Assembly: GCA_009922615.1 (NCBI GenBank)
Contig: RFVF01000001.1
Location: forward strand, 1-64,000
DNA from: Pseudomonadota bacterium
GTDB lineage: Bacteria; Verrucomicrobiota; Verrucomicrobiia; Limisphaerales; SXTU01
Direction: 5' to 3'
Length of the DNA: 64,000 bases
The notes below the pieces were generated by a model that was given only the letters and a program-made list of their open reading frames with translations, was not told where the DNA came from and did no database searches. Shown one piece after another: positions 7,351 through 13,291 of this stretch (the first letter of the stretch is position 1; each line of letters starts with the position of its first letter). A program made the translations under genes and the position numbers.

Positions 7351-8913
7351 ATGAAACCAGCAGTCGAACTCTACGATACGACCTTGCGCGATGGCTCGCA
7401 GGGTGAAGGCGTCAATTTCTCGGTCGCGGATAAGCTCCGCATCGCCGAGCGCATTGACGCCTTCGGGATTCATTACATCGAGGGCGGCTGGCCCGGCAGC
7501 AATCCGAAGGACATCGAGTTCTTCGCACAGGCCAAGCGCCGCAAGTTCAAGCACGCGAAGCTGGCGGCCTTCGGCTCCACTCGGAAGAAGGCCACGCCCG
7601 TCGAGCAAGACGACCAAGTCCGCCTTCTCATCGAAGCCGAGACGCCCGTGGTGACGATCTACGGCAAGACTTCGATGCTGCACGTGAAGGAAGTCCTGCG
7701 CTGCACGCCGGATGAAAACCTCGGCATGATCGGCGACACCGTGCGTTACCTGAAAGACCACGGGAAATATGTCATCTACGATGCCGAGCACGGCTTCGAC
7801 GGCTACAAGCTCGACCCCGAATACGCTCTCGCCACCTGGCAAGCTGCCGAGCAAGCGGGCGCGGACATGGTGGTGCTGTGCGACACCAACGGGGGGTGCT
7901 TGCCCAGTGAAGTTGCTGCCATCACCAAGACCGCCGCCGGCAAACTGAACTGCAAACTCGGCATCCACACACACGACGACATCGGTCTCGGCGTGGCGAA
8001 CGCGCTGGCGAGCATCGAAGCCGGCGCGGTTCAGGTGCAGGGCACCATCAACGGCTACGGCGAGCGCACGGGCAATTGCAACCTGACCAGCGTCATCCCC
8101 TGCCTGCAGTTGAAGATGGGCAAGGCGTGCTTGTCCGCCACGTCGCTCCGCAAGTTGAAGGAGCTGTCCCTCTTTGTGGATGAAGTGGCGAACCTCCGCC
8201 ACAACCCGCGCCAGCCGTGGGTTGGCTCGTCCGCCTTCGCGCATAAGGGCGGTGCGCACGTCAACGCCGTGCAGAAGCTCGCGTCGAGTTACGAGCACAT
8301 TGACCCCGCGCTCGTGGGCAACGAGCGGAACATCCTCGTGAGCGATCTCTCCGGCCGCAGCAACATCCTGCTCAAGGCGCGCGACCTCGGCTTCAAGCTT
8401 GCGGACGACGCGGCAGAGACGAAGGCGATCCTGAATCGCGTGAAGGAGTTGGAGCATGCTGGCTACGAGTTCGAGGCCGCCGAGGCGTCGCTTGCACTCC
8501 TCATCCGCAGCATCCTCGACCACAACCCCGATCTACTCTTCACGGTGGATGACTACCACGTTTCCATGCGCGGCAACCGCAAGTCCTCCACCAACGAGGC
8601 CACGGTCAAGGTTCGCGTCGGGAAGGAAGTTCACCACGAAGTCGCCGAGGGCGACGGCCCAGTGAACGCACTCGATGGCGCGCTTCGCCGGGCGCTGGCC
8701 AAGTCCTTTCCGCAGCTCAAGAAAGTCACGCTCACCGACTACAAGGTTCGCATCCTCGACGGCGTGGCCGGCACTGGCGCGAAGACCCGCGTGCTCATCA
8801 CCTCCACGGACGGCAAGCGCGAGTGGGGCACCGTAGGCGTGAGCGAAAACATCATCGAAGCGAGCCTTCAGGCGCTGGTGGACAGCATGGAGTTCGCGCT
8901 GGTGAGAAAGTAG
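7351..8913 (+). CDS. cimA: (R)-citramalate synthase
   Basis: 520 residues, the usual length for the CimA branch of the 2-isopropylmalate synthase family. The enzyme condenses acetyl-CoA with pyruvate to give citramalate, the first step of the threonine-independent route to isoleucine. The HMGL-like TIM barrel starts with LYDTTLRDGSQGEG (catalytic Arg-Asp pair). It continues with the GGWPGSNPKD substrate loop, which distinguishes citramalate from isopropylmalate synthases, and metal ligands in GIHTHDDIGLGVAN. The C-terminal LeuA dimerisation/allosteric domain occupies about residues 390-515 and ends in DSMEFAL. That domain usually gives feedback control by isoleucine. No other isoleucine gene is adjacent; valS lies downstream beyond an inverted repeat. 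Confidence 0.95.
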   Translation: MKPAVELYDTTLRDGSQGEGVNFSVADKLRIAERIDAFGIHYIEGGWPGSNPKDIEFFAQAKRRKFKHAKLAAFGSTRKKATPVEQDDQVRLLIEAETPVVTIYGKTSMLHVKEVLRCTPDENLGMIGDTVRYLKDHGKYVIYDAEHGFDGYKLDPEYALATWQAAEQAGADMVVLCDTNGGCLPSEVAAITKTAAGKLNCKLGIHTHDDIGLGVANALASIEAGAVQVQGTINGYGERTGNCNLTSVIPCLQLKMGKACLSATSLRKLKELSLFVDEVANLRHNPRQPWVGSSAFAHKGGAHVNAVQKLASSYEHIDPALVGNERNILVSDLSGRSNILLKARDLGFKLADDAAETKAILNRVKELEHAGYEFEAAEASLALLIRSILDHNPDLLFTVDDYHVSMRGNRKSSTNEATVKVRVGKEVHHEVAEGDGPVNALDGALRRALAKSFPQLKKVTLTDYKVRILDGVAGTGAKTRVLITSTDGKREWGTVGVSENIIEASLQALVDSMEFALVRK

Positions 8914-8918
8914 TTTTT

Positions 8919-8995
8919 AACCACAGAGACACAGAGGACACAGAGAAAGACAACTTGGGTTCTTGCCCCTCTGTGTCCTCTGTGCCTCTGTGGTT
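8919..8995. repeat. Inverted-repeat element A (CCACAGAGACACAGAGGACA type)
   Basis: Left arm 8919-8945 and right arm 8969-8995 are 27 bases each and match at 26 positions around a 23-base spacer. It fills nearly the whole gap between the cimA stop (8913) and the valS ATG (9005). Translated, it gives the HRDTEDTE / SVSSVPLW peptides that I recall from spurious short proteins in many bacterial genomes, so it is probably a widely dispersed repeat. It could act as a hairpin between the two messages. Confidence 0.85.
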
Positions 8996-9004
8996 CCATA
9001 AATC

Positions 9005-12000
9005 ATGACCGAGATTCCCAAAGCCTACGAGCCGCAGTCCGTGGAGGACAAATGGTATGACTTCTGGCAGCGCAACGGCTGCTTCACTGCCGACCCCGCG
9101 CGCGTGAGTGAAAAGCGCCCGGCCTATTCCATTGTAATCCCACCGCCGAACGTCACGGGCATGCTCCACATGGGGCACGTGCTCAACAACACCATCCAGG
9201 ACATCCTCAGCCGCAAGGCGCGTATGGACGGCAAGGAAGTCCTCTGGCTCCCCGGCACCGACCACGCCGGCATCGCCACCGAGGGCATGGTCGCCAAGCA
9301 GCTCAAGAAGGAGGAGCACAAGACCAAGCAGGACATCGGGCGCGAGGAGTTTCTCAAGCGCGTGTGGACGTGGAAGGAGAAGCACGGCGGCATCATCATC
9401 TCGCAGCTCAAGAAACTCGGCTGCTCGTGCGACTGGACGCGCGAGCGCTTCACGATGGACCCCGACTACGTGCGCAACGTGCAGCGCGTGTTCGTGGACC
9501 TCTACAAGAAGGGCCTCATCTATCGCGGCAAGCGGATGGTGAACTGGTGCCCCGCCACGCAGACCGCGCTGTCCGACGAGGAGGTGGAGATGAAGCCGCA
9601 GAAGGGCTTCATGTATCACTTCAAGGTCGAGGTGGCCGAATATGCCCCGGGTAGCAGCGGACGTGAGTCCGCTCAAACTCTTCTGGCAGCCAGTCAGAGC
9701 CGACTCACGTCGGCTGCTACAGGTGAGGAGAAGAAGGGCGGCCCCGAGATTGATTCCGAAGGTCGCGTCTGGCTGACGATTGCAACCACACGCCCGGAAA
9801 CCATCCCCGGCGACACCGCCGTGGCCGTGAACCCAAAGGACCCGCGTTACGCGCACCTCATCGGCAAGCACATCGTGCGACCGCTGCCGGCCGAGCTGCC
9901 GCGCGAGCAGAAGCTCATCCCCATCATCGGCGACGAGCACGTGGATTTTGAGTTCGGCACCGGCGTGCTCAAGGTGACGCCCGCGCACGACAAGGCGGAC
10001 TTCGACATCGGCACGCGCCACAAGCTGCCCATCGTGGACATCATGAACGCCGACGGCACGATGAACGACCTCGCCGGCGCAGACCTGCGCGGGCTGGAGC
10101 GGTTCAAGGCGCGCAAGCTGGCGTCGGAGAAGCTCGCGGAGCTGGGAGTGCTCGTGGAGGAGAAGCCTTACGAGAACAACGTCGGCTTCAGCCAGCGCGC
10201 GGACGTGCCCATCGAGCCACGCTTGAGTGAGCAGTGGTTTCTCAAGTATCCGAGCGTGGGGGTGAGCAAGGCGTGCGTGGCGGAAGGCCAGATGAAGTTC
10301 CATCCTGACCGCTGGGCGAAGGTGTATGACCACTGGCTCACGAACATTCAGGACTGGTGTATCAGCCGCCAGCTTTGGTGGGGACATCGCGTGCCGGTGT
10401 GGCATAAGCGGATTCATGTCACTGAAGACAATTGGGGGAAGACGCTGGACGCATGGGGGTGGGACGAATGGGTTGCTGGCAACTGGCAACGGCACGCCGA
10501 GTCAGACCCGAATGAAGCGACAGTCGTCAGAATGGTCCGCGTCTCGGATGGGACGGAAGTGGACCCGAAGATTCAACCCATGTCTCCGGCAGTGAAGGAG
10601 GATGAAGGCGAATATGATGTCTTCGTCGCGACACTTTCGCCCGCGCTGATCAAGAACTTCGAGAGCTGTGGCTTCACCCAAGACCCCGACGTGCTTGACA
10701 CTTGGTTCAGCTCCTGGCTCTGGCCGTTCGCCACGATGGGCTGGACCGGCGAGAAGGCCAGCGACGCCAACGCCGCAACCCTCCGCGCCTTCTACCCCAC
10801 CACCGACCTCGTCACTGGGCCGGACATCATTTTCTTCTGGGTCGCGCGCATGATCATGGCGGGCTACGAATACATGGGCGACCTGCCGTTCAAGAACGTC
10901 TATTTCACCGGCATCATCCGCGACAAGCAGGGCCGCAAGATGTCGAAGACGCTCGGCAACTCGCCCGACCCGCTCGACCTCATCGCCCGTTACGGCGCCG
11001 ACGCGCTCCGCTTCGGCACCATGCGCAGCGCGCCGCTCGGCCAGGACGTGTTGTTCGATGAAAAGGACGTCGAGCTCGGCCGCAACTTCTGCAACAAGCT
11101 CTGGAACGCCTGCCGCTTCCGCCAAATGCAGGGCGGCGAGGTGCAGGGCGAAATCAACGCCGCGCTGCTCTCTAGCGACGACCGCTGGATTCTCCTCCGC
11201 CTCGACCAGGCCATCCGCGAGGTCAGCGACGCGCTCGCGAGCTACAACTTCGCCACCGCCGTGCAATCGCTCTACCGCTTCTTCTGGAGCGAGTATTGCG
11301 ACTGGTATGTGGAGGCGAGCAAGGCTGCGTTCTTCGGCGAAGACGCCGCGCTCAAGGCGAACAAAGTCGCCGTCATCGACTTCGTCCTCTCGCACTTGCT
11401 GCGGATGTTCCACCCGTTGCTGCCGTTCATCACCGAGGAGCTGTGGCACGGGATGGGTTACTCCGCCGACATGCCGGAGGAACAGGGCGGCAAGACCATC
11501 ATGTTCGCCCGTTGGCCCAAGCCGCTTTCCGCCGAGGAGAAGGAAGCCTGGGGCCTTGACGACACCGTGGAGACGTTCGCGAACGTGAAGTTCGAGCTCG
11601 TCACGCAGGGCCGTAATCTCAAGACGCAGTTCAACATCGGCGCAGGCAAAAAGGGCAAGTTCACCCTCAAGCCCGCCGGCAATCTCGCGCCCGGCGAGGC
11701 CGAGGTGCTGCGCCTCTTGCTCAGCGCCGAGTCGCTCGACCTCGACCCGAACTTCGCGCCCAAGAAAGGCACGCCCACCGCGCTCACGAAGCTCGGGGAG
11801 CTTTACCTGCCACTCGATGGACTCGTGGACGTGGAAGTCGAGCGCGCGCGTTTGACGAAGGAACTGGCGAAGATTCAAGCCGAGATCGAGAAGGTTGAGC
11901 AGAAGCTCGCCAACCCGAGCTTCGCGCAGAAGGTTCCGGCCGCTGTGCTGGAAGAGCACAAGCAGCGCCTCGCCGACTGGCAAACGAAGCTGGCGCAGAC

Positions 12001-12028
12001 GAAGGCGGCTATCGAGGCGCTGGGCTGA
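9005..12028 (+). CDS. valS: Valyl-tRNA synthetase with extra insertions
   Basis: 1,007 residues, compared with about 870-950 in most bacteria. It charges tRNA-Val and edits misactivated threonine. Class I signatures are present: HIGH box MLHMGHVLNN near residue 53 and KMSKS box GRKMSKTLGNS near residue 643. The CP1 editing domain includes TIATTRPETIPGDTAV, and the LDTWFSS motif lies before the second catalytic half. The C-terminal ~70 residues are the Val-specific coiled-coil arm (VEVERARLTKELAKIQAEI). There are two oddities. Residues about 216-240 are encoded by a hairpin repeat inserted in frame at the start of the editing domain. The region before LDTWFSS, usually a short zinc-binding or hairpin segment, is expanded to about 100 residues with no Cys-pair ribbon. 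Both lie in surface segments, so function is probably kept. Confidence 0.95.
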   Translation: MTEIPKAYEPQSVEDKWYDFWQRNGCFTADPARVSEKRPAYSIVIPPPNVTGMLHMGHVLNNTIQDILSRKARMDGKEVLWLPGTDHAGIATEGMVAKQLKKEEHKTKQDIGREEFLKRVWTWKEKHGGIIISQLKKLGCSCDWTRERFTMDPDYVRNVQRVFVDLYKKGLIYRGKRMVNWCPATQTALSDEEVEMKPQKGFMYHFKVEVAEYAPGSSGRESAQTLLAASQSRLTSAATGEEKKGGPEIDSEGRVWLTIATTRPETIPGDTAVAVNPKDPRYAHLIGKHIVRPLPAELPREQKLIPIIGDEHVDFEFGTGVLKVTPAHDKADFDIGTRHKLPIVDIMNADGTMNDLAGADLRGLERFKARKLASEKLAELGVLVEEKPYENNVGFSQRADVPIEPRLSEQWFLKYPSVGVSKACVAEGQMKFHPDRWAKVYDHWLTNIQDWCISRQLWWGHRVPVWHKRIHVTEDNWGKTLDAWGWDEWVAGNWQRHAESDPNEATVVRMVRVSDGTEVDPKIQPMSPAVKEDEGEYDVFVATLSPALIKNFESCGFTQDPDVLDTWFSSWLWPFATMGWTGEKASDANAATLRAFYPTTDLVTGPDIIFFWVARMIMAGYEYMGDLPFKNVYFTGIIRDKQGRKMSKTLGNSPDPLDLIARYGADALRFGTMRSAPLGQDVLFDEKDVELGRNFCNKLWNACRFRQMQGGEVQGEINAALLSSDDRWILLRLDQAIREVSDALASYNFATAVQSLYRFFWSEYCDWYVEASKAAFFGEDAALKANKVAVIDFVLSHLLRMFHPLLPFITEELWHGMGYSADMPEEQGGKTIMFARWPKPLSAEEKEAWGLDDTVETFANVKFELVTQGRNLKTQFNIGAGKKGKFTLKPAGNLAPGEAEVLRLLLSAESLDLDPNFAPKKGTPTALTKLGELYLPLDGLVDVEVERARLTKELAKIQAEIEKVEQKLANPSFAQKVPAAVLEEHKQRLADWQTKLAQTKAAIEALG
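9651..9720. repeat. Inverted-repeat element B inserted in frame inside valS
   Basis: Arms 9651-9674 (GTAGCAGCGGACGTGAGTCC...) and 9697-9720 (...GACTCACGTCGGCTGCTAC) pair at 22 of 24 positions. The two mismatches are symmetric, and each arm also folds on itself (CGGAC-GTGA-GTCCG and CCGAC-TCAC-GTCGG), so the element is a double hairpin. It encodes about GSSGRESAQTLLAAS and SRLTSAAT without a stop and keeps the frame. Its architecture matches element C at 12061. Confidence 0.8.
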
Positions 12029-12060
12029 GCCCTAGAAGGTGGCACCGCGTCCGCCAAGAA

Positions 12061-12138
12061 CTGTAGCGGCGGTCTGCGACCGCCGAGGTATTGGCTAGGA
12101 CCGACGATTTCGTCGGCGCTCGCAGAGCGCCGCTACAG
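12061..12138. repeat. Inverted-repeat element C between convergent valS and cytochrome genes
   Basis: Arms 12061-12085 (CTGTAGCGGCGGTCTGCGAC...) and 12114-12138 pair at 23 of 25 positions. As in element B the mismatches are symmetric, because each arm is itself a small palindrome (GGCGGTC-TGC-GACCGCC; GGCGCTC-GCA-GAGCGCC). A third small hairpin, CCGACG-ATTT-CGTCGG, lies in the middle. It sits where a two-way terminator would be expected, but there is no T-run. Confidence 0.8.
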
Positions 12139-12220
12139 GTTTGGAACTTCGGAACGCCAAAGCAAACGGGCCAACCTGAGTGGTCGGCCCGTCTGTTGAA
12201 AACTGCTTGGAAGCTCGTCG

Positions 12221-13291
12221 TTACTTCTTCTTCTTTTTCTTCGGCTCTTCCTTCTTCTCGTCGGCCTTGGGCGCGTCGGGCTTCTTCTCGTCCTTCTTGG
12301 CGGCGGCTTCGGCTTTCTTGGCCTCCTCGGCCTTCTTGTCGGCTTCAGCCTTGGCGGCAGACGCGGCGGCGAAGGCCTTGAGGTCCGCACCGTTGTCAAT
12401 ACGGGCTGTGGGCAGAGCCTTCTTCAACTCGTCCACGCCAGCGTCCGTCACCTTCGACTCAAAGAGGTAAACGCTCTGGAGTTTTTTTAGCCCGGCAAGC
12501 TGCTTGAGGCCGGCGTCCGTGACCTGCGTGCCGACAAGGTTGAGGTATTCGAGGTTCGCCAGAGTCTTCAGGCCGGCGAGGCTGGAGTCCTTCACGGTGG
12601 CGTTGGCGAGGTTGAGGCGGCGCAGGTTGGTGAGCTTGCCAACCTTCGCGAGGTCGGCGTCGGTCAACTCAACGCCGGCGGCGTTCAGCTCAATGAGGTT
12701 GCCCACGTCCTTGATCTGGTCCCAGACCTTCGCGTCGAACTTCTTGCCGACGACGCGTAGGTTGATGTAGCGCCAGTTGCTGCCCTGCGCGATTTCGCGT
12801 GCGGAGATGCCAGCCTTGGCGAGTTCGGCGACGGCTTTGGTCTCGGCGGCGGTGGGCTTGGGCCCGGGGCCAAGGTCGGCTTCCTTCTTTCCACCGCTTG
12901 CCGCGCCTACCGCAGTCAGCTTGAGGCCTGTCGGCCAATCGGCACCGGCGTCGATCCAAGCCTTGAGCAGATCGGCGGTGGCCTTGGAAAGTGGCTCGCC
13001 TTTAGGCGGCATGATGTCGTCGTGGCCTTTGGGAAGCGTGACGACCTGATAGATGCGGCTATCGGCACCCTTGCCTGGGATGATGCCGGCCTTGCCGCTG
13101 TCGCCGCCCTTGAACGCCGCTTCCTTGCTATCGAGGCGGAGCTTGCCCTTTTGCTTGTCGGGGCCGTGGCATTCGATGCAGTTCTTGGCGAGGACGGGGC
13201 CGATGTCCTTGGCGAAGTCGGGCTTGCTGGCGGCGAAGGAAGTCGCGGCGCTCAACGCGGCGACTGTGAACAGTGACGTGGTCAGTTTCAT
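12221..13291 (-). CDS. Periplasmic c-type cytochrome fused to leucine-rich repeats
   Basis: 356 residues. A signal peptide ends at SFAAS. A single-haem domain of the planctomycete/verrucomicrobial type (PSCyt1-like) follows, with CIECH at residues 38-42 and a likely axial Met94 in DDIMPPKGEPL. A linker leads to five or so leucine-rich repeats (about residues 195-305; for example LTNLRRLNLANATV, LANLEYLNLVGTQVTDAGL). The last 50 residues are a Lys/Ala/Glu tail ending in six lysines. The haem domain suggests electron transfer or a redox sensor in the periplasm, while the repeats suggest protein binding; no partner is known. It is the last gene of a minus-strand run below the enolase-superfamily gene (gap 49 bases). 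Confidence 0.85.
   Translation of the reverse strand: MKLTTSLFTVAALSAATSFAASKPDFAKDIGPVLAKNCIECHGPDKQKGKLRLDSKEAAFKGGDSGKAGIIPGKGADSRIYQVVTLPKGHDDIMPPKGEPLSKATADLLKAWIDAGADWPTGLKLTAVGAASGGKKEADLGPGPKPTAAETKAVAELAKAGISAREIAQGSNWRYINLRVVGKKFDAKVWDQIKDVGNLIELNAAGVELTDADLAKVGKLTNLRRLNLANATVKDSSLAGLKTLANLEYLNLVGTQVTDAGLKQLAGLKKLQSVYLFESKVTDAGVDELKKALPTARIDNGADLKAFAAASAAKAEADKKAEEAKKAEAAAKKDEKKPDAPKADEKKEEPKKKKKK

Follow-up and report, generated by a model that had tools for sequence, protein, structure and literature searches.

A GTAG-tagged REP dimer in the editing-domain turn of valyl-tRNA synthetase, a turn occupied by different palindromes across a bacterial order

We investigated a palindromic element within the valS gene of a 64,000-nucleotide stretch of DNA (contig RFVF01000001.1, positions 1 to 64,000; hereafter, the window). 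We consider it probable (roughly 0.8) that this element is a REP dimer that was inserted into a permissive turn of valyl-tRNA synthetase (ValRS), and that the same loops have been filled repeatedly by different palindromic families through the survival of insertions there.

Results

A REP dimer lies in frame within an intact valS gene

The valS frame (9005-12028, plus strand) encodes a product of 1007 residues, which is identified as ValRS by Pfam domains PF00133, PF08264 and PF10458 and by a match to the T. thermophilus structure 1gax (E 6.2e-199). An inverted repeat is present at 9651-9720, where a double-hairpin element had been predicted. Its arms (9651-9679 and 9692-9720, 29 nt each) are 86% complementary by inverted repeat search, and folding 9645-9725 as single-stranded DNA gave -25.4 kcal/mol (z -5.4; 0 of 200 shuffles as good). 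The element consists of two units placed head to head, with their GTAG tags outside. The first REP (9651-9673, plus strand) reads GTAG, one C, stem AGCGGAC, loop GTGA and stem GTCCGCT, and the second (9698-9720, minus strand) reads GTAG, one C, stem AGCCGAC, loop GTGA and stem GTCGGCT, the two differing by one compensated base pair; a 24-nt spacer (9674-9697) lies between them. With a 7-bp stem and a 4-nt loop, both units fall within the definition of a GTAG-REP (tag at the 5' foot, stem of 5-13 bp, loop of 2-20 nt), and the inverted units are able to pair as one long hairpin, an arrangement known as a REPIN or BIME.

The frame remains open throughout with the element included, so that no stop was brought in, and the 24 codons across it (9650-9721, plus strand) encode residues 216-239 (GSSGRESAQTLLAASQSRLTSAAT), where the CP1 editing domain begins; on both points the original prediction held. 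It had also given the length of the element as a multiple of three, which is not true of the palindrome itself (70 nt, or 3n+1); the net change in ValRS is in frame. The encoded residues fall within a loop spanning residues 212/213-254 (9641-9766, plus strand). Alignment of the window ValRS to 1gax breaks at residues 210 and 251, and T. thermophilus has only a short turn there. Our AlphaFold2 model was built on a shallow alignment (35 rows; mean pLDDT 72.5, pTM 0.54) and was therefore used solely to locate the loop. Mean pLDDT values in four blocks over residues 211-250 were 52, 52, 45 and 64, and the predicted loop is flanked by strands at 194-211 and 255-261, with a low-confidence helix at 223-234 within it. 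Judging from the model, a loop between two strands is plausibly a place where extra ValRS residues can be borne.

A second dimer of GTAG REPs, which is intergenic and has CT/AG flanks, lies downstream of valS (12063-12136; z -7.7 for the fold of 12055-12145). The two elements had been described as being of the same design; the design is indeed shared, but the stems differ, and the downstream element belongs to a second family (family B). A search of 8800-12300 against Rfam returned no known RNA family at gathering score. Upstream of valS we observed a very strong inverted repeat (ACCACAGAGACACAGAGGACACAGAG...CTCTGTGTCCTCTGTGCCTCTGTGGT; 8919-8996), with a predicted energy of -52.2 kcal/mol for 8914-9004 as RNA. 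It stops a few bases 5' of the valS start codon and may affect valS translation.

The valS family is dispersed and mostly intragenic

BLAST searches of the genome from which the window comes (G000) found matches to the valS element in two genes, mutS and one of PSD1 type, and also where a ubiD-like gene ends. A strict pattern census found only 4 units, and we used a looser one, with a limit of 2 mismatches, which found 14 units at 10 places; the family is low in copy number and dispersed, as REPs are. At up to 3 mismatches there were 30 matches, as against 54 in a reversed-pattern control, and because this count was no higher than that of the control, the weaker copies are not counted here. 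Both 19-base arms occur with 0 mismatches in three dimers, those of valS, mutS (contig C236) and contig C312, and with 1-2 mismatches at seven further places. The three exact dimers have different spacers, that of valS being unlike those of the mutS and C312 copies. Such exact copies at two other places, together with empty sites, suggest that the elements move, as had been proposed.

Eight of the 10 places lie in Pfam-supported frames (same ORF), in line with the further proposal that coding insertions are tolerated. The usual position of REPs is mainly extragenic, although this is not a defining property in Di Nocera et al. (2013), and the valS family departs from it. In mutS, Pfam domains lie on both sides of the copy, and in the PSD1-type gene downstream only. 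Other Pfam-supported copies are found in dnaE, an 8-oxoguanine glycosylase-like gene and a DUF7133/cytochrome c gene, and one ketosynthase gene holds two copies, the second close to the end of the fetched frame. At C312, the coordinates show that the TAG stop of the ubiD-like frame is supplied by the GTAG of the REP, while the copy on C14 had no Pfam match in the two frames scanned. In-frame insertion with the gene kept open, as in Rickettsia palindromic elements (RPEs), was found for the valS, mutS, dnaE, 8-oxoguanine glycosylase-like, PSD1-type, DUF7133 and ketosynthase genes. The presence of mutS, dnaE and the 8-oxoguanine glycosylase-like gene in this set (L002, L345 and L348; contigs C236 and C69) echoes what Di Nocera et al. 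say of replication and repair genes. Among PSD1-type relatives, the insert-site motif could be located in 2 of 10 loci, from G000 and G004, and the G004 gene has repeat-like sequence at the insert site too. Family B gave 23 BLAST matches in the same genome; of the 16 places examined, 3 have a Pfam-supported frame that spans or adjoins the element (some short alternative frames were left out).

Close relatives have a short turn in place of the insert

We next compared the turn with that of related enzymes, keeping 105 frames (match start below residue 150, end above residue 300, identity above 35). Relatives with a short turn read FKVEVAE-APGT-WLTIATT and lack the 24 residues, as an insertion would predict. 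The window ValRS is 39 residues longer than these (67 versus 28 in the compared stretch). Of the extra residues, 24 overlap the element and about 15 make up a longer loop form (..GEEKKGGPEIDSEGR..), which recurs, with other inserts, in further lineages. The presence of such inserts in the relatives that have the longer loop prevents an exact empty site from being defined. In a tree from which the turn was excluded (57 of 65 rows, 8 duplicates having been removed), the nearest ValRS is 89% identical over 843 columns and has the short turn, and the six-row clade around the window ValRS (support 99) contains three different inserts and three short turns. Also grouping with the window ValRS was L010, 76% identical to it, from a metagenome-assembled record whose title, Klebsiella pneumoniae, looks mislabelled. 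G001 has two ValRS genes, on C89 and C125, and the C125 copy (L092), which groups with a distant lineage, may reflect contamination or transfer.

Had the residues formed an old native loop, they would be expected in distant ValRS proteins. The 24-residue peptide was absent from all 145 other ValRS of our survey (see below), whereas L142, a locus belonging to a different family within the order, shares the loop ends and carries, at the same point, a diverged unit that agrees with the window's at 21 of its 24 bases (none of 200 shuffles did as well). This is still a repeat unit rather than a native loop. By its sequence, L142 appears to place the valS REP family at this point in another lineage, which the unit may have reached through inheritance, through transfer or by inserting a second time. 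An older insert that both lineages inherited, or that was passed on with a transferred valS, may lie behind the resemblance, and in view of this related unit we make no claim that the insertion in the window is recent. Of the 33 other inserts compared, that of L245 has a weaker candidate unit, equalled by 2 of 200 shuffles.

The same turn is occupied by different palindromes across the order

We searched 196 genomes of the order with ValRS residues 1-212, and 174 matched at E<=1e-50. Matches were listed by E-value with the weakest absent, so the sample leans to near relatives. We read 150 ValRS loci (30 directly and 119 fetched, all among the matches listed, and that of G001), 146 of which were readable across the turn: 34 had 72-288 nt (window included), 21 had 15-18 nt and 91 had 3 nt, all lengths being multiples of three. 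The four remaining loci were L128 (G004), which stops just before the turn, L140 (G169), which breaks off in sequence resembling the GGGAGCGC kind, L191, which ends past a short turn, and L306, which ends earlier; G009 was left out, its contig ending in the N-terminal half. Another G004 contig (L090) starts in sequence like the CCCTCACC kind. In two genomes, then, contigs start or stop within repeat-like sequence at the ValRS turn.

As a group, the turn inserts show more structure than equal-length downstream controls from the same genes. Median z from RNA energies was -2.51 for inserts versus -0.25 for controls, z was below -3 in 16 of 34 inserts versus 0 of 33 controls, and the two sets differed by Mann-Whitney test (p = 1.5e-5 for z; p = 1e-7 for inverted-repeat score). 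Ten of the 34 inserts had z above -1, and the 120-nt insert of the window scored only -2.5 because half of it is not element. Sorting by arms, which was our own, gave GTAGCAGC (the window), GTAGCGGC, GTAG/GTGG-GACAGGC, GGAGCGCC-GAGCATTGC, GGGAGCGC, CCCTCACC and others. Automatic clustering gave 9 groups, the largest of which (14) is, in our reading, partly held together by a common loop form. Within the window's own genus (g1), three kinds of turn insert (G000, G002, G005) were found beside short turns in G001, G003, G007 and G010. The fewest changes needed on the ValRS tree were 16 with nine insert classes assigned by us, and 12 when inserts were scored as present or absent (55 rows; L039 and L043 omitted).

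Two of the inserts from other genomes, each searched in host genomes, were dispersed as well. One gave 33 matches in G005 and 19 in G000, with 7 of 11 genus genomes positive, and another gave 31, 35 and 25 matches in G108, G146 and G012, 4 in G000 and 0 in G027; in these counts a palindrome may be matched on each strand, and the place from which the query came is included. Altogether, the turn looks like a place that is repeatedly tolerant of such insertions.

Other loops of ValRS and MutS also carry palindromes

Palindromic inserts (at least 12 residues, z below -3) were found after ValRS residues 212-215 (10 of 28 segments, which are pieces because MAFFT splits this site into two gaps), 427 (17 of 22), 711 (10 of 16) and 777-779 (5 of 16), or in 42 of 82 segments at these four sites. 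At the other variable sites (338, 343, 495, 519, 531 and 626), z was below -3 in 0 of 37 segments, 24 of them at site 495. This comparison used 55 rows, with duplicates, L039, L043 and rows below 52% identity left out. At site 779, L023, from a different species, holds a repeat with a similar translation (SRGNEAP...QSLLTSAAT).

In MutS, the linker before the P-loop was readable in 5 of 8 genus loci. In G000 a valS-type REP dimer occupies it, G002, G004 and G010 have other sequence there that by eye looks repeat-like, and in G006 it is short. A second mutS loop, in G000, G002 and G004, looks like the site of an older dimer of the same kind, with an NAECGMRNAEF spacer.

A RAYT-type transposase is the likely mover

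RAYT transposases have been proposed as movers of GTAG-tagged REPs (Di Nocera et al., 2013; PMC3733652), and the E. coli TnpA-REP is described as cutting at a CT adjoining the REP (PMC8266576), according to the available portions of these reports. We found no Y1 transposase (Y1_Tnp) in G000 (92.6% complete) at E<=0.001, and a Y1 transposase match in 8 of the 11 genomes of the genus. At 4 of the 12 Y1 loci scanned (L157, L160, L163 and L164, scanned with no shuffled control; the transposase match at L160 is weak, at 24.3 bits), the same tagged hairpin occurs repeatedly, and the stem of the valS family was seen at none of the 12. The cognate RAYT flanked by the same REPs that accompanies a REPIN was accordingly not among these loci for the valS family. 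As G000 yielded no Y1 transposase and the recurring hairpins never had the valS stem, we infer the mover, which is likely to be of RAYT type. The GTAG families of Di Nocera et al. are defined by sequence and not by RAYT, so that the missing RAYT limits what can be said of mechanism more than how the element is filed.

A CT lies directly before 14 of 17 units of family B, where the frequency of CT in the window is 0.05, in keeping with a cut of the TnpA-REP type; the valS family does not match this pattern, with a CT before 2 of 15 units. At 2 of 15, we do not take the CT flank as proof of RAYT action on the valS family.

Discussion

Repeats such as a REP dimer, or REPIN, are short and non-autonomous, and their movement is attributed to single-strand transposases of the RAYT/TnpA-REP type; one such dimer would have inserted into the surface turn of the ValRS editing domain. 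Insertions probably land in many places, and those that break an essential gene would be lost, while in-frame insertions in permissive loops would survive. Through loss on the one hand and survival on the other, a small set of loops, at least four of them in ValRS and one or two in MutS, would be occupied repeatedly, in each lineage by the palindromic family active there. The insert itself would then be neutral for ValRS.

We weighed this reading against three others. That the stretch is an old native ValRS loop, palindromic by chance, might be argued from the longer loop form (..GGPEIDSEGR..) that replaces the short turn in several relatives, from longer loops that are not palindromic (L209, L223, L232 and L233), and from the related sequence at the same point in L142. 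Yet the exact arms of the valS element recur in mutS and C312, the strength of its fold far exceeds that of shuffled sequence, and no other surveyed ValRS has the peptide. We find this explanation very hard to credit for the 24 residues, for which the dispersed copies led us to reject it, though for the approximately 15 flanking loop residues it is possible. It seems equally improbable that the insert was kept because it is useful, for instance in tuning ValRS editing or the folding of valS mRNA. It does form a strong hairpin, and it lies about 15 residues before the conserved editing-domain strand WLTIATTRPET, a stretch that we take to have a role in editing. Close relatives, however, do without the insert, and its sequence is the repeat's own, different lineages having unrelated residues at this point.

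A somewhat less remote alternative, which we still regard as unlikely, is that the loops are actively targeted, or that palindromes are swapped there by recombination, the pattern reflecting site preference and not survival. The same four ValRS sites take several kinds of insert, and a single genus shows three kinds at one turn (G000, G002 and G005), as preference would predict; survival in permissive loops, however, predicts the identical pattern, insert kinds with unrelated arms use common sites, and the flanks of the valS family vary. In its boldest form, to which we give about the same small weight, a few core-protein loops (four in ValRS, one or two in MutS) would be standing landing sites at which unrelated palindromic families replace one another by targeted insertion or exchange, and the loop ahead of the editing strand, as it changes, would alter ValRS proofreading between species. 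We favor survival of insertions in permissive loops.

Most descriptions of protein-coding palindromes so far concern Rickettsia or scattered REPs. ValRS offers a natural series, in which the same loop is empty or filled by different mobile repeats in many species. The series makes it possible to test if small mobile repeats select permissive loops or are simply retained in them, and how an essential enzyme is affected by such inserts. It also cautions that, in this group, repeats shape the lengths of loops, the annotation of genes and the assemblies.

As an element, the valS dimer is nothing unusual, and it belongs to a kind already known from intragenic GTAG-REPs and Rickettsia palindromic elements. 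The available text of Di Nocera et al. (2013; PMC3733652) describes GTAG-tagged REPs, their head-to-head dimers and intragenic cases, and the valS element shares with these the GTAG tag, the short stem and loop, the outside position of the tags, partners that may differ in stem bases, and the encoding of 20-30 residues. GTAG ends that give neighboring genes their TAG stop, as in our ubiD-like gene at C312, are reported there as well. Replication and repair genes and tRNA synthetases are among the REP targets in that study, as here, and the most intragenic GTAG units were found in Opitutus terrae, which also belongs to the Verrucomicrobia. The REPINs of Pseudomonas fluorescens SBW25 (PMC3116915, in the part available) likewise consist of two inverted REPs and a spacer that form one long hairpin, but there only 14 of 1,067 16-mers overlap genes, as compared with 8 of 10 places in Pfam-supported frames here, and unlike SBW25, this genome has yielded no Y1 transposase.

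Rickettsia palindromic elements, according to the accessible portions of two reviews (PMC2229807, PMC10969869), resemble the valS element in lying in frame in conserved genes that are not destroyed. These reviews, which cite Ogata et al. (2000, 2002), describe a guanylate kinase carrying an RPE as active, with changed substrate affinity. RPEs differ in being longer (105-146 bp) and in belonging to another phylum, and RPE-4 and RPE-6 were placed by Di Nocera et al. among CGTC and not GTAG repeats (PMC3733652, as far as available).

Our literature search, in which subscription papers were mostly beyond reach, found no published report of repeated insertion at these ValRS sites by different families. 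What appears to be new is that in a single essential enzyme unrelated kinds of repeat have repeatedly filled the same loops, other variable sites of that enzyme serving as an internal control. The REPs of Di Nocera et al. are, in the portion of that report available, mostly intergenic, and genes of the same category are hit at different sites, with the exception of recB of two Xanthomonas (PMC3733652). In contrast, several unrelated kinds occupy the same ValRS turn here, in many lineages.
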